Assembly: GCA_948470255.1 (NCBI GenBank)
Contig: CAOKOS010000012.1
Coordinates: forward strand, 1-56,511
DNA: 56,511 nt
Source: an uncultured Lachnotalea sp.
GTDB lineage: Bacteria; Bacillota; Clostridia; Lachnospirales; Lachnospiraceae
Reading direction: 5' to 3'
Part shown: positions 15,344-18,618 of the stretch, piece by piece
Numbering within the stretch: position 1 is the stretch's first letter
Layout: every line of letters starts with the position of its first letter
Program-made: the position numbers and the translations under genes
Notes under the pieces: model-generated
The model's input: only the letters and a program-made list of their open reading frames with translations
What the model was told of the DNA's origin: nothing
Databases searched by the model: none

Positions 15344-15399
15344 GTTAGTTTTAGTTGATTTCAGACAGTTACTATGATATAGTTAGAACGTGCAACGAT

Positions 15400-15656
15400 A
15401 TTGCCTTATCAAGTGCCTGTCATGGACAGGGAAAAGGGAATCAGGTGAGAGTCCTGAGCGATCCGGTCACTGTATTCAGGATGCGTACCTCAAAATCCAT
15501 TGCAAACCCTATCATGCGAGAAGGAGAGGCAGCGCGTAGAACTGTAAGTCAGGAAACCTGCTTGGTATGTGAGATGGGCTTCCGTGGAAAGCTTTACATC
15601 CAACAAGGGATACCCCCCTTATGATGTCAGCTTGTGGGTTAAGCAGACATATTTTT
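15400..15656 (+). promoter_or_regulatory. Cobalamin riboswitch with intrinsic terminator
   Basis: The conserved parts occur in order: AAGTGCC...GGACAGGGAAAAGGGAA, GGTGAGAGTCC, GCGATCCGGTCACTGT, and the B12-box region AAGTCAGGAAACCTGCTTGG at about 15546-15565. This is the core of the cobalamin aptamer. Behind it, at 15624-15650, ATGTCAGCTT pairs with AAGCAGACAT (one A-A mismatch) around GTGGGTT and is followed by ATTTTT, the expected expression platform. Cobalamin riboswitches normally control B12 transport, synthesis or B12-independent isoenzyme genes. None lies downstream; the next coding gene is galE at 16002, beyond another terminator and a repeat element. Confidence 0.9.
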
Positions 15657-15800
15657 GAAATCTCAAAGCAACTTTTCATATGCACAATGAAGAATGTGGA
15701 GAATGAGTCCGGGCAGGATGCCTTTTACTCGCCGGGCAGCATGTTCGCGGGCTATGTGCACATTCAAAGCGAGGGACGTGCCTGTGGGCGCGTCCTTTTT
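15657..15800 (+). ncRNA. Candidate short RNA released by the cobalamin riboswitch
   Basis: If transcription passes the riboswitch terminator it meets a second strong terminator at 15774-15800 after about 145 bases. The stretch between holds no convincing gene: an ATG at 15687 opens 41 codons but has no ribosome site. Two related words, CCGGGCAGGATG and CCGGGCAGCATG, repeat 25-30 bases apart, and TGCACA/TGTGCA pairs enclose them, so a folded RNA is plausible. Riboswitch-controlled small RNAs are known for cobalamin (Rli55/EutX and AspocR). This call is inference from layout; a decayed gene is the main alternative. Confidence 0.4.
15774..15800 (+). terminator. Rho-independent terminator of the riboswitch transcript
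   Basis: GGACGTGCC pairs with GGCGCGTCC (one T-G pair) around TGTG and is followed by TTTTT. The repeat element copy C starts five bases later. Confidence 0.9.
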
Positions 15801-15804
15801 GTTC

Positions 15805-15955
15805 CTTTATAGGAAACTGCGTCCTATAAAGTAAAAAAGCTCCGCGAGGATCGCACTGCGGCGGAGAGGAACTATATCGCTGAAGCGATCCGCCGCAGGC
15901 GGAGAATCCTGTAAGCAGGATTCTTTGTTCCCGTATGAAACTTCATTTCCTATAT
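15805..15955. repeat. Hairpin-rich extragenic element, copy C (variant)
   Basis: It begins with a perfect inverted repeat, CTTTATAGGA/TCCTATAAAG around AACTGCG (15805-15831). It continues with TGCGGCGGA/TCCGCCGCA enclosing ATCGCT-GA-AGCGAT, then GAATCCTG/CAGGATTC around TAAG, and ends TTTGTT...TTTCCTATATGAAAAGCC. The outer parts match copies A and B; the inner hairpins are of different sequence. It separates the riboswitch transcript from galE. Confidence 0.65.
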
Positions 15956-16001
15956 GAAAAGCCCTCCAGGGCAGAGCAGAGATAAACAGGAGGAATAAAA
16001 A

Positions 16002-17024
16002 ATGGCAGTTTTATTGACAGGCGGGGCCGGATATATTGGCACCCATACAGCCATTGAAGTGGCAGGCCGTGGATACCAGGTGGTGATCGCAGATAATATG
16101 GTCAACAGTCTCCCGGAGGCTGTGCGCCGGGCAGAAGAGCTGGCTGGAAAAAAGTTTCCGTTTTATCTTATTGACGTGGCAAAGGAAACTTCCCTGGAGC
16201 AGGTGTTTGCAGAAAATAAGATCGATGCAGTGATTCATTTCGCGGGGCTTAAAGCTGTAGGAGAGTCTGTGGAGAAGCCTTTAGAATATTATGAGAACAA
16301 TTTGGAAAGTACTCTTACACTTTTAAAAGTAATGAAAAAGCATGGCTGTAAACGGATTGTCTTCAGTTCTTCAGCCACGGTTTACGGGACGCCAAAGTCG
16401 GTACCCATTACGGAGGAAATGCCTGTCGGGCAGAGCTGTACCAACCCTTACGGCTGGACAAAGGTATTTATCGAACAGATTTTAAAGGATGTGTCATACG
16501 CAGATCCGGAACTTTCTGTGATTCTTTTGCGGTATTTTAATCCGATTGGAGTCCATGAAAGCGGAAAAATCGGGGAAAATCCCGATGGAATCCCCAATAA
16601 TCTGATGCCTTATATTTCCCAGGTGGCAGTGGGGCGCCTGCCAAGACTGCGGATATTTGGAAACGACTATCCTACACCCGACGGAACGGGAGTCAGGGAT
16701 TATATTCACGTGGTAGACTTGGCGAAAGGACATGTGGCGGCTCTTTCCTATGGAGAAAAGCATACCGGCGTGGAAATTTTCAATCTGGGTACGGGGACTG
16801 GATACAGTGTTCTTGAAATCGTAAATGCTTTTGAGCAGGTAAACAATGTCAAAATTCCTTATGATATTGTGGGCCGGCGGCCTGGAGACATTGCGGAATG
16901 TTATGCAGATGCTTCCAAAGCAGAGCAGCTTCTGGGATGGAAGGCGGAGAGAACCTTGGCAGACATGTGCCGGGATACCTGGAATTGGCAGAAAAATAAT
17001 CCCGAAGGTTATCCCCGGACGTAA
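16002..17024 (+). CDS. galE: UDP-glucose 4-epimerase
   Basis: GalE interconverts UDP-glucose and UDP-galactose, for galactose use and for supplying sugars to surface polymers. The 340-residue protein has the NAD-binding GGAGYIGTH near residue 7, the catalytic SSSATVYG (Ser122-Ser124-Thr126) and Tyr150-x3-Lys154 in NPYGWTK, at almost the same positions as in E. coli GalE. The late region has VRDYIHVVDLAKGH. AGGAGGAAT precedes the ATG by about six bases. It has no galK or galT beside it. The upstream cobalamin riboswitch is cut off from it by a terminator and a repeat element, so control by B12 is not expected. A clear promoter was not found. Confidence 0.96.
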   Translation: MAVLLTGGAGYIGTHTAIEVAGRGYQVVIADNMVNSLPEAVRRAEELAGKKFPFYLIDVAKETSLEQVFAENKIDAVIHFAGLKAVGESVEKPLEYYENNLESTLTLLKVMKKHGCKRIVFSSSATVYGTPKSVPITEEMPVGQSCTNPYGWTKVFIEQILKDVSYADPELSVILLRYFNPIGVHESGKIGENPDGIPNNLMPYISQVAVGRLPRLRIFGNDYPTPDGTGVRDYIHVVDLAKGHVAALSYGEKHTGVEIFNLGTGTGYSVLEIVNAFEQVNNVKIPYDIVGRRPGDIAECYADASKAEQLLGWKAERTLADMCRDTWNWQKNNPEGYPRT

Positions 17025-18545: not shown

Positions 18546-18618
18546 TGGAGCATAGGGGATTCGAACCCCTGGCCTCAACAATGCGAATGTTGCGCGCTCC
18601 CAACTGCGCTAATGCCCC
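18546..18618 (-). tRNA. tRNA-Ala, anticodon CGC
   Basis: The 73-base sequence folds as a tRNA: acceptor GGGGCAT/ATGCTCC, D stem GCGC/GCGC, anticodon stem CAACA/TGTTG with loop TTCGCAT, and T stem AGGGG/CCCCT with loop TTCGAAT. The G3-T70 pair in the acceptor stem is the alanine identity signal. The anticodon CGC reads GCG. The discriminator is A; CCA is not encoded. Confidence 0.93.

Follow-up and report, generated by a model that had tools for sequence, protein, structure and literature searches.

A cobalamin riboswitch upstream of galE probably gates a trans-acting antisense RNA directed at the corrinoid-protein gene acsD

What does a cobalamin riboswitch control when the stretch behind it holds no convincing gene? 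In the window, that is, the whole stretch of 56,511 nucleotides analysed here (contig 12 of a 2.5-Mb genome in 87 contigs), an LTA-synthase-like gene is followed, in the 5' to 3' direction, by a cobalamin aptamer, a P13 hairpin with a T-run, about 110 nt without a convincing gene, a second terminator (T2) and galE. The upstream gene scores 42.9 bits with the NCBIfam LtaS model, far under the cut-off of 970, and galE, the next gene 3' (16002..17024, plus strand), is recognized by TIGR01179 with 448 bits. A promoter-like site lies just 5' of the aptamer (15355..15383, plus strand; TTGATT and TATAGT spaced by 17 nt, with a TG before the -10), and its TATAGT is found in 9/9 aligned relatives. We propose, with a probability of roughly 0.72, that positions 15385-15801 encode an antisense RNA (about 415 nt) that acts in trans, is gated in both its synthesis and its ability to pair by its own cobalamin riboswitch, and has the acsD mRNA as its main target. 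Transcription, RNA-RNA binding, repression and the direction of the B12 response are what we infer here from sequence comparison.

The cobalamin aptamer of the original prediction is recovered by RF00174 at 15394..15579 (plus strand) with 98.5 bits, above the gathering score of 31.5. A helix scan of the nine aligned leaders (at least 7/9 sequences pairing per position, at least 5 bp, best 45 helices) ranked P1 first, the stem of T2 second and a helix between 15558-15566 and 15638-15646 third. P1 (15405-15415/15559-15569, plus strand) comprises 11 bp, with a mean of 8.7 of the nine sequences pairing per position and 5 covarying pairs, while the third helix comprises 9 bp that pair in 9/9 leaders and 2 covarying pairs. 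This alternative helix joins the P1 3' strand CTGCTTGGT (15558..15566, plus strand) to GTTAAGCAG, the 3' half of P13, and since both strands are used by it, its formation excludes P1 as well as P13. The expression platform is thus mutually exclusive with P1, and the choice between P1/P13 and the alternative helix corresponds, as predicted from the alignment, to the usual ligand-OFF riboswitch logic. A kissing contact between L13 and L5 is a feature of cobalamin riboswitches with a P13. In this regard, the loop AACCCUAUCA (15505..15514, plus strand), which we take to be L5 of the aptamer, is invariant in 9/9 sequences, and its AACCC, which can kiss L13, is complementary to the P13 loop GGGTT (15636-15640) in all nine. 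In the genomes of two relatives (G006 and G007, 87% and 90% complete), RF00174 gave no match other than the riboswitch upstream of galE.

In the window, a riboswitch terminator precedes a putative non-coding RNA that would end at a separate 3' terminator. The first of these terminators, T1 (15624..15656, plus strand), is formed by the P13 hairpin, with the stem ATGTC-A-GCTT...AAGC-A-GACAT at 15624-15650 and the loop GGGTT, together with five T at 15652-15656. The aptamer had been credited with a terminator of its own at this place, a view that holds for the hairpin, which is kept in the relatives, and only in part for the T-run, which occurs in L003-L006 and is lacking in L007-L011; T1 can therefore be a terminator in at most 4/9 loci. 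The second strong terminator of the original prediction, in contrast, is well borne out: a terminator is called at 15771-15798, and its 10-bp stem (15773-15782/15787-15796) pairs in 9/9 sequences with 5 covarying pairs. We presume T2 (15771..15801, plus strand) to be the 3' end of the RNA.

Between the two terminators lies a conserved structured element (15661..15768, plus strand; model R1), which comprises TCTCA and ATGCACAAT, followed by a helical domain on the same strand, with the helices GAATG 15701-15705/CATTC 15761-15765 and GTCC 15707-15710/GGGC 15749-15752 plus a covarying long stem. In the nine-sequence alignment A3, 91.1% of the cells of this four-helix structure are paired, a value biased in its favour, as the structure was named after inspection of the same sequences. 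Eight pairs are changed on both sides, against a shuffled mean of 4.0, and only 2/500 shuffles reach 8; the covariation score of 0.309 is reached by 1/500 shuffles, and when the partners are slid by 1-3 columns as a control, 23-56% of the cells are paired. Restricted to the seven sequences in which the inner hairpin is retained, the analysis gives a similar picture (90.3% paired, 7 two-sided pairs, 3/500 shuffles). The fold of the single sequence 15657-15806 is unexceptional (z of -1.35, with 20/200 shuffles folding as well); it is the alignment that speaks for structure. No Rfam family covers the element, either at the gathering threshold or at E 5, the three sub-threshold matches at E 5 lying outside it at 15847-15987. 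Two features that had been taken as signs of a folded RNA did not survive the comparison: the TGCACA/TGTGCA helix is broken in 3/9 relatives (L007, L008 and L009) and was rejected, and the duplication of the CCGGGCAG word lacks conservation. Conservation within the element is highest in a loop that is mostly unpaired (15722..15733, plus strand) and reads CUUUUACUCGCC in the window and in G007 and UUCCUACUCGCC in 7/9 sequences. A pairing of this loop with the aptamer's own GCGAGAAGGAG was considered and rejected, 15-65/100 shuffled words being as good.

The conserved stretch might also be read as what is left of a B12 gene, or as a gene for a short peptide, with an ordinary riboswitch in front of it. 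In this regard, the window does hold an ORF of 63 codons (15621-15812), and the homologous frame is open in some relatives. However, this frame is broken early in L005, L008 and L009, and the distances between conserved blocks differ modulo 3, which together argue that the element is not a gene; the earlier statement that no convincing ORF is present agrees with a frame that is not kept across the nine relatives. The alternative of a decayed B12 gene, which had been left standing beside the original prediction, has likewise fared badly, inasmuch as the covariation looked for is present (8 two-sided pairs, 2/500 shuffles) and a B12 gene fragment is not. The compensatory base changes support an RNA, and we regard the coding reading as refuted in the main and its probability as negligible. 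From the alignment, the stretch after the aptamer thus presents itself as a structured RNA with compensatory changes and not as a decayed gene. A leader peptide starting at the conserved ATGCAC was also discarded, its 8 codons being found in L003, L005, L006 and L007 and not kept in the other five.

The complement of the invariant loop, GGCGAGTARRAR, has 23 matches in the 11 genomes of the genus, of which nine are the element itself. Against the proposal, the reversed control word is commoner (78 matches against 23 in the same 11 genomes; gene starts were compared for the 23). In seven genomes (G000, G002, G003, G004, G006, G007 and G010), the exact word GGCGAGTAGGAA is placed directly before a start codon; the other seven matches are distributed over G001 (two), G004 (one), G005 (three) and G008 (one). 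The gene behind GGCGAGTAGGAA is acsD (NF040759, WLP_AcsD, 488 bits against a cut-off of 430), which is flanked by acsB on its 5' side and by an acsC-like gene on its 3' side. AcsD is the small subunit of the corrinoid (B12) iron-sulfur protein, which carries the corrinoid. The loop is complementary to GGCGAGUAGGAA, the ribosome-binding site of acsD, a gene located on contig C18 of the window's own genome (G000), the element being on C12.

Within the genus, the distribution of the site follows that of the element. acsD is present in 9/11 genomes of the genus and was not found in G005 (84% complete) and G009 (80% complete), both of which carry the element. The exact ribosome-binding-site word occurs in 7/7 genomes with both element and acsD, whereas the two genomes without the element, G001 and G008, have GGCGAGCAGGAA at this position. 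Within the window's own genome GGCGAGTAGGAA occurs once, at the acsD start; allowing up to one mismatch, there are 4 matches against 11 for the reversed control, and the three additional sites were dismissed as targets, none being in an evident ribosome-binding position by eye. Among the outgroups, 6/7 acsD ribosome-binding sites differ and that of G064 is GGCGAGTAGGAA, so the site may predate the RNA. This locus (L158), from another genus, has the word without TGATAGGG upstream. One of the two matches in G001 is also an exact GGCGAGTAGGAA (L126, G001:C29:5692-5703), just 5' of a gene that by eye, from its N-terminus, encodes an oadB-like decarboxylase subunit; in this genome without the element, we take it as chance.

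A second contact is suggested by the acsD leader. Its alignment contains an invariant CTGATAGGGAG in the seven element-bearing genomes with acsD, and not in G001 or G008, that corresponds to the loop part of a hairpin located 70-106 nt 5' of the acsD start codon. The hairpin itself is missing in 2/2 genus genomes without the element and in 7/7 outgroup acsD leaders. The hairpin loop UGAUAGGGA is invariant in 7/7, and 8/10 pairs of the stem are changed on both sides, with a covariation of 0.780 against 0.308 for shuffled alignments (0/500 reach it), the seven genomes contributing 6 distinct sequences (G004 and G010 share one). The UGAUAGGG of this loop is the exact complement of CCCUAUCA (15507-15514) in L5. 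As L13 needs only AACCC, the other invariant bases of L5 would be unexplained without a contact to acsD. In line with this notion, TGATAGGG is absent from the 800 nt upstream of acsD in G001, G008 and 7/7 acsD-bearing outgroups, these seven coming from 105 non-genus genomes searched at E <= 1e-90. Moreover, CCCTATCA occurs in none of the 19 other cobalamin aptamers listed for the genus; in a wider window, 1/21 loci (L081) has this word or its complement, outside the aptamer. The antisense target implied by the original prediction is thereby given a candidate, in that the invariant loop and L5 match two conserved sites of the acsD leader.

How readily could two such matches arise by chance? Across the seven genomes, the RNA holds 69 invariant 8-mers and the acsD leader (-130 to +3) holds 17, for which 0.018 complementary pairs are expected; exactly 2 were seen, one between L5 and the leader loop and one between the element loop and the ribosome-binding site, and the same-sense, reversed and complement-only controls gave none. 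Because acsD was reached through the match to the ribosome-binding site, independence can be claimed for the L5 match alone, with an expectation of about 69 x 4 / 65536 = 0.004. Genome by genome, the signal is uneven. Uninterrupted Watson-Crick pairing extends over no more than 8 nt in G000 and G007 (11 if two G-U pairs are admitted), and at least two runs of 8 nt are found in 82/400 and 70/400 shuffled leaders, respectively; in the other five genomes the longest run is 12-13 nt, a run of 12 being reached in 0-3/400 shuffles. It is therefore these five genomes, together with conservation, that carry the case.

The duplex at the ribosome-binding site has a predicted energy of -17.3 (G000, G007) to -25.6 kcal/mol, and that at the loop one of -12.1 kcal/mol. 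The antisense loop has a predicted openness of 0.60-0.86 in 6/9 folds, with lower values in L008 (0.43), L009 (0.22) and L011 (0.46), and L5 one of 0.66-1.0 in 8/9 (0.19 in L005). On the messenger, the leader loop is predicted to be open (0.84-0.88) and the ribosome-binding site to be accessible by about half (0.42-0.52). The two contacts do not follow each other as they would in a single continuous duplex, which, like the low openness values, counts against the proposal.

These features can be combined into a model in which the RNA can pair with the acsD messenger and probably shuts it off. When cobalamin is bound, P1 would hold the strand that would otherwise invade P13; P13 would form, T1 would end transcription in the species with a T-run, and L13 would kiss L5. 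With little cobalamin, the 3' strand of P1 would instead pair with the 3' half of P13, transcription would proceed to T2, and L5 would be free. The free L5 (CCCUAUCA) would then contact the acsD leader hairpin loop (UGAUAGGG), and the loop of the element would cover GGCGAGUAGGAA, from the Shine-Dalgarno end to the start codon, so that AcsD translation would be blocked. Such a repression in the absence of B12 is sensible because the corrinoid iron-sulfur protein carries the corrinoid; if true, the logic is simple, no B12-carrying enzyme being made without B12. AspocR and Rli55 of Listeria follow the same logic (PMC8079631).

More tentatively, and at somewhat less than even odds, L5 may double as an antisense seed, in which case its cobalamin-driven occupancy by L13 would switch target recognition directly, beyond RNA synthesis. 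If this holds, the five species without a P13 T-run would still be B12-controlled, the acsD leader hairpin would be the trans counterpart of L13, and a ligand would directly switch an antisense seed.

The element appears, from the searches described here, to be confined to one genus of gut bacteria (Lachnospiraceae). A DNA search with the region in the own genome and 60 relatives gave matches in 15/61, with 9/11 genus genomes (own included) matching most of the region; in the other six matching genomes, there are short aptamer matches or, in G025, a 25-nt match at 15731-15755. With model R1, E <= 0.05 was obtained in the own genome alone among 299 family genomes, under strict filters with 12 candidates scored per genome and with G000 and G008 as the genus genomes listed. 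Under laxer filters, 39 relatives gave 9 genus matches and 3 weak ones (E 0.12-0.27), which we take as noise because they span only 57-76 nt. A pattern scan of genome contigs, with a downstream-element pattern built in the knowledge that it misses G010, returned 7 records from seven of the nine element-bearing genus genomes, including Fusibacillus kribbianus and Candidatus Paralachnospira caecorum. Neither the R1 nor the pattern searches found the element outside this genus, and R1 found none in G001 and G008.

These two genomes have the most divergent galE of the genus (74% identity), starting 11 and 2 nt (G001 and G008; loci L053 and L054) after the stop of the ltaS-like gene, with nothing between. 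Either the RNA module was inserted in the nine genomes or the two have lost it, and, since 0/19 outgroup loci tested have the ltaS-galE pair, the outgroups are compatible with both. galE had further been placed beyond the second terminator and a repeat element. T2 and an insert (window 15800-15990) do precede it, the latter shared with G007 and absent from the other 7/9 loci; the repeat, however, is a single inverted one (arms 15802-15814/15822-15834), and no tandem repeat was found in the insert by repeat-finding tools.

The position of galE raises an alternative in which the whole stretch is its 5' leader: the cobalamin riboswitch, possibly with the element, would gate read-through of T2 in cis, and the matches to acsD would be secondary or accidental. 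galE indeed follows the element in 9/9 element-bearing genomes and, as described, stands directly behind the ltaS-like gene in the two genomes without it. Furthermore, among the eight loci in which the distance was taken (L005 left out), T2 is 25 (L006), 38 (L008), 44 (L010) and 56 nt (L007) from the galE start codon in four, a gap that leaves little room for a separate galE promoter. Yet no conserved antiterminator for T2 was found across the nine leaders, a cobalamin riboswitch is found at 0/19 outgroup galE loci examined (39 outgroup genomes with a match), and we know of no link between galE and B12. The galE leader would also leave the invariant loop, the full L5 sequence and the acsD leader hairpin unexplained, and we consider it unlikely. 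One antiterminator candidate, near column 352 and among the top three in 7/9 leaders, not in L008 and L009, was rejected in view of competing sites.

It is also conceivable that the second element is an orphan riboswitch or a protein-binding leader that responds to another signal and acts through T2, in tandem with the cobalamin riboswitch. In favour of such an arrangement, an intrinsic terminator directly follows a conserved helical domain whose internal loop is invariant. Against it, the element has no Rfam match, was detected in no other genus by the searches described above and shows no conserved alternative pairing with T2, and the acsD site already accounts for its invariant loop; this makes the tandem arrangement quite improbable. 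Alongside an antisense RNA directed at acsD, which we continue to favour, galE may additionally be expressed by read-through of T2.

Systems in which a B12 riboswitch gates a regulatory RNA include Rli55, with which EutX is grouped, and AspocR. The original prediction had assigned the locus to this class, an assignment supported by the covariation and by the two complementarities to the acsD leader. According to PMC8079631 and PMC9943018, AspocR of Listeria is an antisense RNA to pocR controlled by a B12 riboswitch, which terminates the regulatory RNA with B12; if B12 is lacking, the full-length transcript is made and acts as an antisense repressor of a gene for B12-dependent metabolism, as is predicted here. 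Its target is a neighbouring gene that encodes a regulator, whereas here the predicted target is the corrinoid protein itself, acsD lies on another contig (C18 against C12), without the overlap and opposite transcription of an AspocR-type RNA, and the predicted pairing involves two short loops. Rli55 of Listeria has a B12 riboswitch before a non-coding RNA that ends prematurely with B12 (PMC8079631), and the gene set regulated by Rli55/EutX needs B12; Rli55, however, sequesters EutV via an ANTAR element, in contrast to the direct antisense pairing indicated here. The same text presents SreA and SreB as trans-acting SAM riboswitches on prfA, in which the riboswitch RNA base pairs in trans to a 5' UTR and blocks translation, as we predict for acsD (PMC8079631). 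SreA is described there as the product terminated with ligand, while here the predicted active form is the read-through product made in the absence of ligand, which would carry an antisense domain dedicated to pairing; ligand and target differ as well. Relative to ordinary cobalamin riboswitches with L13-L5 kissing, the aptamer is the same and the P13 loop is likewise complementary to L5, but L5 has extra invariant bases complementary to another mRNA.

Judged from sequence, the predicted system differs from these described ones in its combination of features: a cobalamin-OFF riboswitch, a dedicated antisense domain, a target that encodes a corrinoid protein at a distance, and a second contact made by an aptamer loop. 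By title, the literature searched, which left most subscription papers uncovered, contains neither a cobalamin riboswitch arranged with galE nor a riboswitch-gated small RNA for acsD or a corrinoid protein. If true, the proposal would add a B12-riboswitch-gated regulatory RNA, now in Lachnospiraceae, to the AspocR and Rli55 described for Listeria (PMC8079631), one that would employ compact antisense pairing in trans and be directed at the Wood-Ljungdahl corrinoid protein. Further cases might be found by searching for complements to the loops of orphan riboswitches.

Some additional observations concern repeats and other RNAs. The acsB-acsD intergenic region of L145 (1520-1760) contains further GC-rich hairpin-like repeats of the GCGGCCGCGAAAGCGG type. 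A repeated GGCGAGTAGGAG with a near-inverted copy, resembling short palindromic repeat elements, occurs at L141/L146 (G005:C31) and L147 (G004:C73). In the window itself, a T-box leader at 434-681 (RF00230, 129 bits) scores highest among three Rfam matches, the other two being the cobalamin aptamer and a minus-strand tRNA (18546-18618).
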